Origin: a virus
Reading direction: 5' to 3' (one strand)
DNA length: 64,000 bases
IMG/VR virus record: IMGVR_UViG_3300042317_001568
Coordinates: 141,011 to 205,010 of that record
Position numbers and translations under genes: made by a program. Positions 42,691 through 61,448 of this stretch are shown piece after piece; positions within the stretch are counted from its first letter, which is position 1; the number at the start of each line of letters is the position of its first letter. The notes beneath the pieces were generated by a model. The model searched no databases. It was given only the letters and a program-made list of their open reading frames with translations, and was not told the DNA's origin.

Positions 42691-44389
<1,699 letters not shown>

Positions 44390-44406: not shown

Positions 44407-47400
44407 ATGACTCTCGCACCTCCAAAAATTCTTCAGATACGTATATTAAGCGTAACCGAGTTGCCGGATCGGCTATCCGGAAACTATTGGTCTAGCAGCG
44501 CTTATCGGTGGACAGCCACGTTAGCGGTTAATCCGCAAACTCACGGCGACCCGGCGTCTTCAACAGGCTTTTACTACACAGCCCGCGACATCAAAATCGG
44601 CGACTATGTCGTAACCAGCGGCCGTGGTTTAATTCTTAAAGTAATTGCTGTAAATGCCGGTTCGGTTACAGACACGTCTATCCAGTGCACGCTTGAAGAC
44701 GAAAATCAATACAACGCGTTTCTAAGCGAAAACTCAGACGGTGACGGTTTAATTCCGTCAAACAATACAGAAGGCGTACTGTTTGAAACAAAAAACGGCT
44801 GGCCTATTTTGCATCCTTTACCGGACGCGTTGGCTGGTACGTTGCCGCCCTATTTTTCAGCTGACATTATTTCTCGGTTTATGTACACCCGGCCCGCCGA
44901 CTCTGGCGGCAGTGGGTCTGCAGGCCCTACAGGTGCTGCTGGTCCTACTGGTGTTGCAGGCCCAACCGGCGTTGCTGGAGCTACTGGTCCAACTGGCGCT
45001 GCTGGGCTAAACGGAGCTACTGGTCCAACCGGTGTTGCTGGAGCTACTGGTGTTGCTGGTCCAACTGGCGTTGCTGGGTTAGATGGCGCTACTGGTCCAA
45101 CTGGGGCTGCGGGCGCTACTGGCGTCGCAGGCCCGACTGGCGTTGCTGGAGCTACCGGTGTTGCTGGGTTAGATGGCGCTACTGGTCCAACTGGGGCTGC
45201 TGGCCCAACTGGCGCTGCGGGCGCTACTGGCGCCGCAGGCCCGACTGGCGTTGCTGGAGCTACCGGTGTTGCTGGGTTAGACGGAGCGACGGGCCCAACC
45301 GGCGCTGCTGGGCTAAACGGAGCTACTGGTCCAACCGGTGTTGCTGGGCTAGATGGCGCTACTGGTCCAACTGGGGCTGCTGGTCCAACTGGCGTCGCGG
45401 GTGTTGTTGGGGCTACGGGCGTTATTGGCCCAATTGGCCCCGCTGGCGTCACCGGTCCAACTGGTCCTGTTGGAGCTACTGGTCCAACTGGGGCTGCTGG
45501 GTCGCAAGGTATAGACGGAGCGACGGGCCCAACCGGCGCTGCTGGGCTAAACGGAGCTACTGGTCCAACCGGTGTTGCTGGAGCTACTGGTGTTGCTGGT
45601 GTTGCTGGATTAGACGGAGCTACTGGTCCAACCGGTGTTGCTGGTCCAACTGGTGTTACAGGCCCTACAGGTCCTGCTGGTCAGCAAGGTGTTGCTGGTC
45701 CTACTGGTGTTACAGGTCCTACAGGTCCTGCTGGTGTTGCTGGGCCGCAAGGTATAGACGGAGCTACTGGACCTACAGGCCCCGCCGGGGTTGCTGGTCA
45801 GCAAGGTGTTGCTGGTCCAACTGGTGTCGCCGGGCCGCAAGGTATAGACGGAGCTACTGGACCTACAGGTCCTGCTGGTCAGCAAGGTGTTGCTGGTCCA
45901 ACTGGTGTCGCCGGGCCACAAGGTATAGACGGAGCTACTGGACCTACAGGTCCTGCTGGTCAGCAAGGTGTTGCTGGTCCAACCGGTGTTGCTGGCGCTA
46001 CAGGTGTTACAGGTCCTACAGGGCCTGCTGGTGTTGCCGGTGTTGCTGGTCCAACCGGTGTTGCTGGCGCTACGGGTGTTACAGGTCCTACAGGGCCTGC
46101 TGGTCAGCAAGGTGTTGCTGGTCCAACTGGTGTTGCTGGGCCGCAAGGTATAAATGGCGCTACCGGGCCTACAGGGCCTGCTGGTCAGCAAGGTGTTGCT
46201 GGACCAACTGGTGTTGCTGGCGCTACAGGTGTTACAGGTCCGCAAGGCTCGTCTTTAAATATTCGCGGGCAGCTTGTAGAGTGGCCGCCGTCGTGGCTGC
46301 CCGAGTTTGGCGATATGTGGGTGGCCGTCGATCCCGTGCCGCTTGACACGCCAGTTTATTTGAGCGTGCAACCCGGCGACGGCATCGCGTGGGTCGAGTC
46401 GGGCGATGGCGGAGATTGGTTAAATGTCGGGCCTTTCAGAGGACCTATTGGTCCGCAAGGTTTATTGGGCCCTAGCGGCCCAACGGGCGCACAGGGTATT
46501 CAAGGCATTCGCGGCGCGACCGGCGTACAGGGTCCGTCTGGCCTCGTCGGCGCAACAGGCCCGCAAGGACCGGCGGCAAGCAATATTGTGCTCAGCGTTA
46601 ACTCTCAGACAGGGGTGGTTGTGTTGCAGTCTGACGACATCACGCTCGACACAGAATTTACGGTTTTAGCAGTCGACCAAGGCGACCTTGCAAATAATAC
46701 AGTCATAGCAGCCGGTACGTCGTTGACGACGATTATCCGGCGCATGCTTCAAAAGCGCGTTCCGGCGACGTACTTAACGCCGACGCTCGTTATTGGTAGT
46801 ACGACCGCCACGGCCACAATTGAATACGGCTCTACTATAAATACGACGTTGTCATTGACGTGGACAAAAAGGGACGGCGGCGACCCAACACAGTTTAGAT
46901 ACCGGCAAAACAATCAAACTATAAACACAATTTCAGGGGCCACGGCCGCCGATTTTACGGTCCCGACATTTAATTTAACCAGCACAGCGACATTCAACGC
47001 TGTTGCGGACTACGCCGCGGGACCAGCAAAACCAGACAACTTTGGCGACGCTACGTTGCCGTCTTTGCCGGCAAGTACTGCTTCGTCTGGCAACGTGGTC
47101 CTAACGCCGGCGCATAAACGGTATTATGGTTGCACAGGCGCAGACACGCTAGACAACGATCTTGTGCTAGGGCTGCCGAATAGCGACTTACCAGCAAACA
47201 ACGCCGTTTCGCCGCCGATCGGTTCCGGATCGGACTTTACAAATTCGCGTAGCATTGCTAGAAAATTTAATCCAGATGGGCAGTACATTTACTTTGCGTG
47301 GCCTAACTCGTTAGAGGGCAGCACCGCCCCGGTCTTCACCGTAGGCGGATTATCGACTAGCGGCTGGGTAAAAACGACGGTACAGTTACGAAACGAACAA

Positions 47401-47496
47401 ATAACAGCGAAATTATCAATTGCTGCGACTACCTACGCCGTGTACCGTAGTCCAAACAAAATTAACGGCACCGATGTTAATGTTCAGGTGACGTGA
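44407..47496 (+). CDS. Collagen-like tail fibre 2 (1,029 aa)
   Basis: An N-terminal globular domain (about 1-170, [22 protein letters not shown]) precedes a very long Gly-X-Y run (about 172-617, mostly [10 protein letters not shown]-type units). A folded insert ([18 protein letters not shown]...GDGIAWVES) matches that of fibre 1, then a second short collagen block, then a C-terminal beta-rich domain (about 740-1029; [19 protein letters not shown]). Trimerisation is expected. The DNA of the repeat is near-identical from unit to unit, so assembly length and allele length may vary. It starts at ATG 44407, 17 bp after fibre 1. Confidence 0.85.
44921..46250 (+). repeat. Tandem collagen-coding DNA repeats
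   Basis: Units encoding [23 protein letters not shown] and [16 protein letters not shown] recur many times, several as near-identical DNA blocks (for example the GGTCAGCAAGGTGTTGCTGG block near 45680, 45795, 45877, 45957, 46103 and 46185). This is long tandem-like repetition able to expand, contract or collapse in assembly. Confidence 0.8.
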
Positions 47497-54123: not shown

Positions 54124-54495
54124 ATGGCTGCACCAAATCTACAGGCTCCGACAACAGTCACTGGCAAAACGACGTATTTGTCTTTGTCCGCAACAACTGA
54201 AACGACGCTGCTGTCAAACGCGGCGGCAAGTAACAAAGCGTTGCGTATCGCTAACTTAACAGTGGCGAATAAATCTACTACCACAAGCGCGTCAATTGCA
54301 GCAAAAATCTACACGGCTGCGAGCGCCGGTACGGGCTATTCTTTAGCCGCTACGGTGACTGTACCTGTAGGCGCTGTTGTTATCTTAATCGGCAAAGAAA
54401 ATCCGGTGTGGCTGGAAGAAGACAAGCGCATCACAGTTACAGCCGGCACAGCAAATATTCTTGACGTTGTTTGCTCGTATGAAGAGGTTGCATAA
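54124..54495 (+). CDS. Small structural protein, paralogue of 61089 gene (123 aa)
   Basis: The protein begins MAAPNLQAPTTVTGK and contains VVILIGKENPVWLEEDKRI and a CSYE end, matching the gene at 61089 (MAAPNIAATTNIIGK, NPLWLEEGDSI, CSYE). It is beta-sandwich-like. Each paralogue lies directly upstream of a LamG-like protein, suggesting a two-gene module. The stop overlaps the next start by one base. Confidence 0.7.
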   Translation: MAAPNLQAPTTVTGKTTYLSLSATTETTLLSNAAASNKALRIANLTVANKSTTTSASIAAKIYTAASAGTGYSLAATVTVPVGAVVILIGKENPVWLEEDKRITVTAGTANILDVVCSYEEVA

Positions 54496-56474
54496 TGCCC
54501 CGCCCGTCTGGTGGTTATGCTGCTGGGTACGTGACGCCCGTACTGAGTTCTAATGCGGCTGTGGGAGTGTGGACGCCGCGCGATGTATACGCCAATCGAG
54601 CCGCCGGTACGTGGCCTGTTGAGGGCACGGCTACGCCAGCGTTCTCGACTGTTGGCTACACGCGACTGTGGGGTTTAACCACAAAATCTTCTGGGCTGGT
54701 CACGGGTACGGCCGCAACCGACACCGGTCGGTATAACGTGAAATGGTGGGACAACACTATTACAAACCATCTTTCCGGCGGCACATTTAGCAAAGCAGCC
54801 GCGGGTGGCTATCGCGCGTTTGAGATTTATCCGGTGCGGCAAACACTCACTTCCGCGTCTAGCAATGCGGTTTTAGCCTACAAAAACGGCTATAACGTCA
54901 CTATCGACACCGGGCAGAGTAAGTTCGGCGGCGCAAGCGCTTCTTTTGGCGGCAACGGCGACTATCTCAGGACATCTGTTGCGTTTAACTACTCATCAAA
55001 CTTCACGATAGAGTTTTGGTTTCGGCGATATGCCTCGGGCAGCGGTCAGGCCCCTACGTTTTACGAAGCCGGTGATATTCAAGGCGGTCAGGGCGGCTTG
55101 CATATTTATTATTTAAACGGTCAGATGCAGGTTAGCGACGGAATCGCCCCGGGCATCTCTGGCGGGTCAATTCCGGCGTTAAACACGTGGGTACATATTG
55201 CCCTAGTGCGGAACAACGGCACAAATACGTTGTACGTTGACGGCACCAGTGTTGGAACGAGCACGCAAGATTACGCGGCGCAGATAACAAATAACATCAT
55301 CTCAATCGGCGGCGCCCCAAACTACAGTTTTTATATCCACGGCTGGATCGACGATTTTCGGCAAACGCAAGCCGCTGTTTACACAGCCAATTTTACGCCG
55401 CCTACGGCAGCCCTCACCGCGATTACTAACACAGCGCTCCTGTACAACTTTAATACAGACTTTGACTCTATACCGTTCGGACAGTTTGACGGCTTTGACG
55501 TGTCGTCTAACAACATCACCAAGTTGCGAGGAGAAAGCCTCATAATCGACCGCGGACCGGGCTTCAATCAGTCGGTATACATGTATATCGGGTATCCGCA
55601 TTATGGTTATGGGTATGTGCCACAGTGGGTTCCCGGTCCAGCAGAATTTGCAAGTTTGAAAAACAATGATCTTGCAGCCGCTGATTTGGACCAGTTCTAC
55701 ACAGACCTCGGCGCCAGCAACGCCGGTGTTTTGAGCGTGCAGGGCAACCCCGGCATATCAGCCGACACGCCATCTATAGCCACAGCGAAAGGCTATACGG
55801 TGTTTGGCAGCGTGCCTCCGGCTACGACATTGCTTTTAAATTGCGAGGGGGCAAATAACGGAACCACGATTACAGACTCTAGCGTAACAGCGCAGACTAT
55901 TCGCCGCCTCCACACCGGCAGCACTGCTCCCGTTACCAGCACAACGCAGTTTAAGTATGGTTCGTCTTCGGTTCTTTTTAACGGCAACAACTGGCTGGAC
56001 AACTTAAACGGCAATTCGGCTAATGTCTTGGGTACCGATAATTTTACTGTAGAAATGTGGGTGTACTTAGCGTCTCGGGGAACGGTGACGCCAATCTTTG
56101 AGTTAGACCAATACACTGCTGGTATTTTGTGGCGCGTAGGCAGCAGCGTAGATAGTCTTTGGATCAAAAACAACCAATACAACTGGTCGCCGGCTACGCA
56201 CGTTCCTTTAACGACATGGACGCACGTGGCGCTTGTCAGAGAGAACGATAATGTGCGCGTATACGCAGGTGGGGTGCAGCGGCTGTCTGTCAACTTACCT
56301 GCAAACACGTTAGTTGGCACAGCGGGCAAAATAGTTATCGGCGCGTCTACGCATGATAATTACACTACCCGTATGACCGCCAACAGTTATCTTGACGACA
56401 TCCGGCTGACACGCGGACTTGCTCTTTACACGGGCACCTTCACGCCGCCGACGGCGCAACTTACGGCACTATAA
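54495..56474 (+). CDS. LamG/concanavalin-like tail protein (659 aa)
   Basis: Two laminin-G-like lectin domains are visible. The first (about 140-310) has SKFGGASASFGGNGDYL, FTIEFWFRR, NTWVHIALVRN and LYVDGTSVG. The second (about 440-658) has NFTVEMWVYL, TWTHVALVREN, VRVYAGGVQ and YLDDIRLTRG. Such domains in phage structural proteins bind carbohydrates, which fits recognition of host surface glycans. A linker rich in Tyr/Gly joins them (YMYIGYPHYGYGYVPQ). Confidence 0.8.
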   Translation: MPRPSGGYAAGYVTPVLSSNAAVGVWTPRDVYANRAAGTWPVEGTATPAFSTVGYTRLWGLTTKSSGLVTGTAATDTGRYNVKWWDNTITNHLSGGTFSKAAAGGYRAFEIYPVRQTLTSASSNAVLAYKNGYNVTIDTGQSKFGGASASFGGNGDYLRTSVAFNYSSNFTIEFWFRRYASGSGQAPTFYEAGDIQGGQGGLHIYYLNGQMQVSDGIAPGISGGSIPALNTWVHIALVRNNGTNTLYVDGTSVGTSTQDYAAQITNNIISIGGAPNYSFYIHGWIDDFRQTQAAVYTANFTPPTAALTAITNTALLYNFNTDFDSIPFGQFDGFDVSSNNITKLRGESLIIDRGPGFNQSVYMYIGYPHYGYGYVPQWVPGPAEFASLKNNDLAAADLDQFYTDLGASNAGVLSVQGNPGISADTPSIATAKGYTVFGSVPPATTLLLNCEGANNGTTITDSSVTAQTIRRLHTGSTAPVTSTTQFKYGSSSVLFNGNNWLDNLNGNSANVLGTDNFTVEMWVYLASRGTVTPIFELDQYTAGILWRVGSSVDSLWIKNNQYNWSPATHVPLTTWTHVALVRENDNVRVYAGGVQRLSVNLPANTLVGTAGKIVIGASTHDNYTTRMTANSYLDDIRLTRGLALYTGTFTPPTAQLTAL

Positions 56475-57208
56475 TGATTTTCTATTACGGCACGCCAAAG
56501 TACTCTGTCGCGCTGAACGCTAAAGTCGGCTCAAGCAGTATGGCGCGGGCGATTATTGAGCAGTTTTATCCGCGGCAAGATTGGTTGATACGTACCGCGG
56601 CGTACCCAGAAGGCAAATCTCCTGAAACTGAACAGTGGCATTGGCTGTGCGGCGGCTCGCCCACGCCGCCAAAGCCTGTAGTGCTACTCGTGCGTGACCC
56701 GGTTGCTCGTTTTGTGTCCGCGTGCCAGCAAGTAAACATTAAACCCAGCAATGTCCAAAACGCTATAGACTCAATTATCGATGACGTCCAATGTCATCGC
56801 GTCAGGCCAGAAAATTTATCCGACGAGCAGTGGCGCAAACAGTTGGACTACGCGACACGCCAAAATACGCGGATGGGGCAGCAGATGATGGCTCAAGGAA
56901 AAAAGCCGCCTCGCCTTGGCTTCCTGCGCGACAACGTGCACTTTCTTCATCAGCACGAATACGCCGTAGGCCCGACGACTTGTTTTCGGTTTCCTCGGGA
57001 TATGAAGGCCGCTTGGGAGTTTCTTGAGATCGCGGCGCCAATACCGGAAGCAAACAAAGCCCGGCGAAAAAAAGCCGTGTTAACAGAAGAACAAGAAACT
57101 GCTGTGCGGCTGTACTACTCGGCAGACCAGCAATTATTTGATAGCATTACTGCGCCGGGTTATGTGTTTACTCCGGACACGACGCCGGCAACAACCGCTG
57201 ATCTTTGA
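56474..57208 (+). CDS. Sulfotransferase-like enzyme
   Basis: This 244-residue protein overlaps the lectin gene by one base. It shows the two PAPS-binding elements of sulfotransferases: NAKVGSSSMARA (residues 15-25, the 5'-phosphosulfate loop) and VVLLVRDPVARFVSA (Arg74, Arg79 and Ser82, the 3'-phosphate site). A basic DNA-like region and a C-terminal RYY-type helix follow. It should transfer sulfate from PAPS to a sugar, or to a tyrosine or other acceptor. Being embedded among fibre and lectin genes makes modification of virion or host glycans the obvious hypothesis. A rarely described function for a phage gene in this location. Confidence 0.7.
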   Translation: MIFYYGTPKYSVALNAKVGSSSMARAIIEQFYPRQDWLIRTAAYPEGKSPETEQWHWLCGGSPTPPKPVVLLVRDPVARFVSACQQVNIKPSNVQNAIDSIIDDVQCHRVRPENLSDEQWRKQLDYATRQNTRMGQQMMAQGKKPPRLGFLRDNVHFLHQHEYAVGPTTCFRFPRDMKAAWEFLEIAAPIPEANKARRKKAVLTEEQETAVRLYYSADQQLFDSITAPGYVFTPDTTPATTADL

Positions 57209-57238: not shown

Positions 57239-57577
57239 ATGAGCGTTCTTGACCCAGAAACATCCCCGATTTTAGACCCGGCGACCCGCATTGCGAACCA
57301 ACTTAAACAAAACGCCCGCAATATATTTCGCAACATTACCGGTTCTTTTGCACAAAACGCCAAACTTTTTTGGCAGAACCCGCAAGCGACGCCGCAGGAA
57401 ATCGCCGCGGCACTAGGCACCGACGGCGTTGAACTTTTTCAGTTGCACGCCAAACTAGGCGAATTGCTGTACTCGATAAAACCCGAAGTCACTACTGCCA
57501 CTATGGCTATCGTGGGCGACTCTACGTACAACGAGGACGGCTCTGTGACTATTCCGACCACGCCGCCCGCTGAGTGA
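57239..57577 (+). CDS. Hypothetical phage protein (112 aa)
   Basis: ATG 57239 follows AAAGGA. The product is helical, with a central NARNIFRNITGSFAQNAKLFWQNP and a later LGTDGVELFQLHAKLGELLYSIKP segment resembling small phage proteins of unknown role. It lies between the sulfotransferase and a glycosyltransferase. Confidence 0.65.
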   Translation: MSVLDPETSPILDPATRIANQLKQNARNIFRNITGSFAQNAKLFWQNPQATPQEIAAALGTDGVELFQLHAKLGELLYSIKPEVTTATMAIVGDSTYNEDGSVTIPTTPPAE

Positions 57578-58218
57578 TGTCGGCTAAGCCCCGCGTCCTC
57601 GGCGCGTTGTTTACAAAAGGTCTGCAACCAGACTCGCCGCCCCACCACGACCGTATGACACCAGAGATGGGGCGCGCGTGGGCGGAATCAGTAAACGACC
57701 ACGGCTACGAAGCAATTCTGTTCACCGACGTTGACTGCAGTTTTTTACCGGTGACTGAAGTGCGAATTCCGTGCCGCGGTTTTCCGCACACGTATCGCTT
57801 TATCGCGATAGCCGATTATGTAAAAAAGCAAAACTTACGCGGCGAAATCTGGTGTACGGACGTGCGTGACGTAATCATGATCAACCGCCCGCGGCCACAA
57901 CCCGGGTTTTTGTATGTCGGGTCTGAGCCTGATGGCCCCCGCTCGTGGCGTTGGATGTCGAGTGTGCAGGCTGGTTGCCCTTTTTGGACGTACACAAATT
58001 ATCCGGGTATAAACTACAATTGCGGAATTGTAGGCGGCATTGATATTGGTGATTTTTTGCAGACGCTCGGTAAGTTAAATAAAATGTGCCGCGGCCTACA
58101 TGACATGCACTCTTTTATTTATGCCCTGCAGTCGCAAAAAAACATTGTAACCGGCCCTTTGGTGCACAGTGTTTTTACGGCTAATACTCCTACTGACGCT
58201 TGGTTTGCGCACAAGTAA
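57577..58218 (+). CDS. GT-A-type glycosyltransferase-like protein (213 aa)
   Basis: ATG 57577 (GTGATG context) overlaps the previous stop. The fold order fits a GT-A enzyme: YEAILFTDVDCSF near residue 45, WCTDVRDVI near 92-100 with a D..D metal-type motif, and NYNCGIVGG near 146-154, plus a DMHSFIYALQ stretch. Donor and acceptor are unknown. With the sulfotransferase upstream and lectin-like neighbours it belongs to a possible glycan-modifying set. Confidence 0.6.
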   Translation: MSAKPRVLGALFTKGLQPDSPPHHDRMTPEMGRAWAESVNDHGYEAILFTDVDCSFLPVTEVRIPCRGFPHTYRFIAIADYVKKQNLRGEIWCTDVRDVIMINRPRPQPGFLYVGSEPDGPRSWRWMSSVQAGCPFWTYTNYPGINYNCGIVGGIDIGDFLQTLGKLNKMCRGLHDMHSFIYALQSQKNIVTGPLVHSVFTANTPTDAWFAHK

Positions 58219-58950: not shown

Positions 58951-61086
<2,136 letters not shown>

Positions 61087-61088
61087 TT

Positions 61089-61448
61089 ATGGCTGCACCA
61101 AACATTGCTGCAACGACAAACATTATCGGCAAGCTTGACACTGCGGCAGTGACAACGTCTATGCAGGTTATGGTGTCTAATCCGGCATCTAGCGGCAAAG
61201 TCTACAAAATAAACACGCTCTTTGCTGTGAACGTTACGGGCGCTACCGCGACGGACATGCACATATCGTTATTCAGAGGCAGCAGCGAAGTTCCGATTAT
61301 TCGGTTTACAGCGGTGCCTGCCGATGCCACACTGGTTGTCATCAGCAAAGACAACCCGCTCTGGTTAGAAGAAGGCGACTCGATTAAGGCGCAAGCCGGT
61401 GCAAATGGTCGAACCGTAATTCTCTGCTCGTACGAGATTATTTCTTAA
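61089..61448 (+). CDS. Small structural protein, paralogue of 54124 gene (119 aa)
   Basis: MAAPNIAATTNIIGKL, a middle beta domain and the shared end (DNPLWLEEGDSIKAQ, CSYEIIS) match the 54124 protein across its length. It is likely a beta-sandwich small fibre component. It lies between fibre 3 and another LamG-like protein, mirroring the 54124-54495 arrangement. Confidence 0.7.
   Translation: MAAPNIAATTNIIGKLDTAAVTTSMQVMVSNPASSGKVYKINTLFAVNVTGATATDMHISLFRGSSEVPIIRFTAVPADATLVVISKDNPLWLEEGDSIKAQAGANGRTVILCSYEIIS

Follow-up and report, generated by a model that had tools for sequence, protein, structure and literature searches.

A diverged family of sulfotransferase-like phage proteins encoded directly behind a tail adhesin gene

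Introduction

Sulfotransferase genes are already known from phages. The genomes of OM43 phages carry sulfotransferases of the Sulfotransfer_3 type, and the excerpted text of that report states that the function of sulfotransferases in phage genomes remains unclear (PMC10580990); sulfotransferases are also reported, in an excerpt of a second study, from glacier viruses (PMC8290583). As far as these two excerpts go, the genes resemble the one described here in being phage-borne and of unclear function, but differ in being lone auxiliary genes that are not described as invariably paired with a tail adhesin. Two further examples come from Synechococcus phage ACG-2014f, in which gp216 (phrog_3542) and its near neighbor gp220 (phrog_3347, "Galactose-3-O-sulfotransferase") both score above the Pfam cut-off for Sulfotransfer_2 (29.3 versus 22 bits for gp216, protein P0001). 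No direct study of phage or tail sulfotransferases was found in the literature that we searched. The original prediction for the DNA analyzed here, which called sulfation a seldom reported phage function, is fair with respect to experiments but not with respect to databases and genome surveys, which already hold phrog_3347, many phage entries in BFVD (predicted viral structures) and the genes in the excerpts cited above.

Here we describe a sulfotransferase-like gene in a 64,000-nucleotide stretch (hereafter the window) of an IMG/VR virus record of 205,010 bases. The new observation is that all 15 checkable contigs with the N-terminal module of the adjacent adhesin also carry the sulfotransferase; neither this fixed pairing nor the diverged sulfotransferase family was found in the literature searched.

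Results

The sulfotransferase-like gene overlaps a tail adhesin gene

The gene lies within a run of tail genes, of which the following features are relevant here.

54495..56474, + strand: tail adhesin-like protein with an N-terminal VKWWDN module, an LRR-like GNPG..IATAKGYTV segment and two Laminin_G_3 domains (Pfam, PHROG, locus comparison)
56472..56476, + strand: TAATG stop/start overlap of the adhesin and sulfotransferase genes (sequence)
56474..57208, + strand: sulfotransferase-like gene, 244 aa (ATG-started ORF, related viral loci, Pfam and PHROG matches of the family, structure comparison)
57239..57577, + strand: 112-aa protein (relatives near the sulfotransferase in loci L004, L005, L035, L036 and L040)
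57574..58218, + strand: glycosyltransferase-like protein (phrog_1579), accessory (PHROG, locus comparison)
58996..61086, + strand: collagen-like tail fiber, 696 aa (Pfam Collagen, E 2.7e-81; tail fiber PHROGs)

Both the ORF and its one-base overlap with a lectin-like gene, as originally predicted, were confirmed: the TAA stop codon of the LamG gene and the ATG of the sulfotransferase gene have one base in common, and the upstream ORF contains Laminin_G_3 domains (E 8.6e-29, Pfam). Because stop/start overlaps are common elsewhere in this phage too, as judged from the ORF list, the TAATG overlap alone is weak evidence. The predicted location among tail genes was likewise borne out by Pfam and PHROG matches, which place the LamG protein, the collagen-like fiber and small fiber-related proteins nearby.

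A search of the 205-kb record for two glycosyltransferase families detected a single such protein, the phrog_1579 protein encoded two genes downstream of the sulfotransferase. L005 has a relative but L004 does not, and the glycosyltransferase is therefore not essential to the adhesin-sulfotransferase pair. The 112-aa protein is also encoded close to the sulfotransferase in distant phages, with two tandem copies in L035 and one copy further upstream in L040.

The protein belongs to a diverged family with both PAPS-binding loops

Searches of viral contigs with growing alignments yielded 32 related loci, some of them near-identical and others down to ∼24% identity, from which 21 representative phage proteins (24–95% identity) were aligned. 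The window protein alone matched Pfam Sulfotransfer_2 (PF03567, carbohydrate sulfotransferases) with an E-value of 0.13 and 12.8 bits, short of the curated cut-off of 22 bits, and the Pfam alignment covered residues 71–95. For this reason we regard the protein as a diverged relative of Sulfotransfer_2 and not as a formal member, though 17 of the 21 relatives matched PF03567 at E ≤ 1 (best E 2.2e-5). Similarly, phrog_3347 was matched by 18/21 relatives (best E 9e-7) but not, at E ≤ 0.1, by the window protein itself, which on its own matched phrog_3542, the group of ACG-2014f gp216, with an E-value of 0.005. The family profile matched gp216 with an E-value of 9e-12 over residues 40–202, whereas the best of 1000 shuffled controls gave 0.56. 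Single-sequence searches with the window protein gave no credible match in the PDB and a best E-value of 0.06 among annotated phages, and NCBIfam contained nothing useful for the family. No cellular relatives were found in ∼85,000 genomes by two family-alignment scans, although absence is not proven by these scans because each used only two short motifs.

The alignment of the 21 relatives delimits three conserved motifs within the gene.

56510..56542, + strand: putative 5′-phosphosulfate-binding loop, residues 13–23 (ALNAKVGSSSM), with Lys-17 invariant (alignment)
56684..56722, + strand: putative 3′-phosphate-binding loop, residues 71–83 (LLVRDPVARFVSA), with Arg-74, Pro-76 and Arg-79 invariant (alignment; Pfam)
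56939..56953, + strand: third motif HFxxQ, residues 156–160, with His and Gln invariant (alignment)

Lys-17, Arg-74, Pro-76 and Arg-79 are present in all 21 sequences of the phage family alignment (24–95% identity), and residue 82, a serine in the window protein, is Ser or Thr in 20/21 relatives and Cys in L050. The alignment thus contains the hallmarks of the superfamily, namely a 5′-phosphosulfate loop with an invariant lysine and a 3′-phosphate loop with arginine and serine. The original prediction that the gene encodes both PAPS-binding loops holds, with Lys-17, Arg-74 and Ser-82 in the window protein, and survived the check that had been proposed for its refutation: when aligned with sulfotransferases, the PAPS-binding residues were kept. 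With loops invariant throughout the family (21 relatives, to ∼24% identity), a chance motif match is ruled out. Also invariant across the 21 representatives are His-156, Gln-160, Asn-194, Lys-200, Tyr-215 and Asp-218; of these, His-156 and Gln-160 belong to the HFxxQ motif, which we consider a candidate for catalytic or acceptor-site residues. The H-x-x-x-Q pattern recurs in the cyanophage proteins P0001 (HFESQ) and P0002 (HIRPQ).

Overall, gp216 and gp220 of ACG-2014f resemble the window family in the loop residues (Lys; Arg, Pro, Arg and Ser) and in H-x-x-x-Q, yet they share only ∼19–25% identity with it, and their first loop has PK(N/T)(G/A)G where the window family has NAKV(G/A)S. Compared with PF03567 as a whole, both PAPS loops are held in common, whereas the score of the window protein (see above) sets it apart. 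Purifying selection on the family is clear, with dN/dS of ∼0.08–0.17 for near pairs (dN 0.068 and dS 0.518 between the window and L005).

The predicted structure agrees with a sulfotransferase fold

An AlphaFold model built with the 21 sequences reached a pLDDT of 88.9 and a pTM of 0.83, compared with a poor pLDDT of 72.7 when 8 sequences were used. In BFVD, the first four matches of the model were annotated sulfotransferases, all with a probability of 1.00, from an uncultured phage, Synechococcus phage ACG-2014f, a giant virus and Prochlorococcus phage P-SSM7. Among solved structures in the PDB, the best 11 matches were all sulfotransferases, albeit weak ones, with a best E-value of 0.12 and none reaching 0.001. 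The best of these, heparan sulfate 3-O-sulfotransferases (PDB 3bd9 and 1vkj) and the glycopeptide sulfotransferase StaL (PDB 4eec), resemble the model in the general fold only (TM ∼0.3). The model and its BFVD matches thus indicate a sulfotransferase fold with weak support from the PDB, and because the PDB E-values are weak, the fold assignment rests on several agreeing lines together with the invariant residues. Judged from its sequence, the window protein is sulfotransferase-like and related to the carbohydrate-type Sulfotransfer_2 group.

The sulfotransferase gene is paired with the adhesin gene

Relatives of the adhesin-like protein also sit immediately 5′ of the sulfotransferase at other loci. 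We divided the loci into group A, which are window-like (13 inspected), and group B, with 24–28% identity. In all 13 group A loci, the gene immediately upstream encodes an adhesin-like tail protein of the LamG or LRR type, or else a protein sharing a segment with it: the LamG proteins are related to the window adhesin, LRR proteins occur in L038 and L040, and the upstream proteins of L041 and L042 have the "NPG..IATAKGY" segment in common with the window adhesin. The start of the sulfotransferase gene overlaps the upstream stop codon in 11 of these 13 loci, in the forms TAATG, TGATG, ATGA and GTGA. The reverse test gave the same picture. The N-terminal module of the adhesin was found on 18 viral contigs, and the sulfotransferase was present on 15/15 of those with enough downstream sequence (several near-identical, representing about six lineages); the remaining three end within ∼620 bases of the match. 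Although it falls short of proof, the pairing suggests the virus's own tail, or something in contact with it, as the target of sulfation by the virus.

In group B, the gene immediately upstream of the sulfotransferase encodes a Pro/Ala/Glu-repeat protein, possibly a surface-exposed virion protein, and the region includes the gene for the major head protein in L044 and L047. The repeat protein genes (5580–5975 in L044, 5508–5966 in L048, 5397–5735 in L032 and 5676–5954 in L050) have long repeats at the protein end. In addition, large ORFs at 2854–4380 in L044 and 943–2523 in L032 combine matches to HNH endonuclease, Mom-like/acetyltransferase, head closure and endonuclease VII proteins in a single frame.

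Discussion

The best explanation of these results, which we favor by a modest degree, is that the gene encodes a PAPS-dependent sulfotransferase that is co-translated with the upstream adhesin and would most likely sulfate the adhesin, a neighboring fiber or a glycan thereon. The enzyme would be made late in infection, translated together with the preceding adhesin gene, and would draw on PAPS made by the host. Neither an APS kinase nor a PAPS reductase was found in the 205-kb record; with no APS kinase found, PAPS would come from the host. Sulfate would then be placed on the tail adhesin or the neighboring fiber during virion assembly or, alternatively, on a glycan attached to either of them by the glycosyltransferase encoded two genes downstream. 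More broadly, and more tentatively, viruses may carry a family of sulfotransferases whose dedicated role is the post-translational sulfation of phage tail adhesins or fibers, in which sulfated residues or glycans would tune host binding. The adhesin and the sulfotransferase, as a fixed two-gene unit, offer a concrete and testable acceptor, and if the proposal is confirmed, sulfation joins glycosylation among the ways in which phages decorate their tails.

The main rival reading is that the predicted enzyme adds sulfate to a polysaccharide on the host surface (O-antigen, capsule or exopolysaccharide), altering the receptor so that it no longer binds sister phages or so that progeny avoid adhering to debris. 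The two related sulfotransferases of ACG-2014f are encoded within a sugar-modifying cluster (epimerases and glycosyltransferases), a setting that suggests glycan acceptors. The window family gene, in contrast, lies directly behind a structural adhesin gene on every checkable adhesin contig and in no sugar-synthesis cluster; its neighbors are tail genes rather than the sugar-nucleotide and glycosyltransferase genes that mark clusters for host-glycan modification, and the single glycosyltransferase detected with the two families searched also argues against this reading, which we consider unlikely. The original prediction had further proposed marine planctomycetes or algae-associated bacteria as hosts, a proposal that gained no support, as no finding here points to a host; the DNA polymerase of the record is only ∼24% identical to those of cultured phages.

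Fiber chaperone genes are often found directly after the fiber gene in phages, and the position of the sulfotransferase-like gene would suit a protein of sulfotransferase descent that has lost sulfate transfer and now helps the adhesin to assemble, as a chaperone, or accompanies it as a structural partner. Such a role would also accord with L038 and L039, in which the enzyme is fused to an extra C-terminal phage domain (phrog_6034/phrog_14311) that occurs in Sinorhizobium phages and other phages. However, the PAPS-contacting residues, which a chaperone does not need, are under purifying selection to ∼24% identity, and we regard the loss of sulfate transfer as rather improbable. Sulfation of a small molecule or nucleotide, in a metabolic or DNA-modification role, appears very improbable: sulfotransferase-based nucleotide modification in phages is mentioned in PMC10829341, but the window gene lies in a tail module, in fixed pairing with an adhesin gene and not among replication or base-modification genes. 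Sulfation of the adhesin, a fiber or a glycan on them thus remains the reading that we prefer.

Two further observations concern the organization of the tail module. Collagen-like tail fiber genes occur in it at three separate places (42743–44389, 44407–47496 and 58996–61086). Moreover, the small proteins encoded at 54124–54495 and 61089–61448 (123 and 119 aa) are alike, both beginning with MAAPN and sharing P(V/L)WLEE and CSYE toward the end; they adjoin two different fiber cassettes, as if a cassette had been duplicated.
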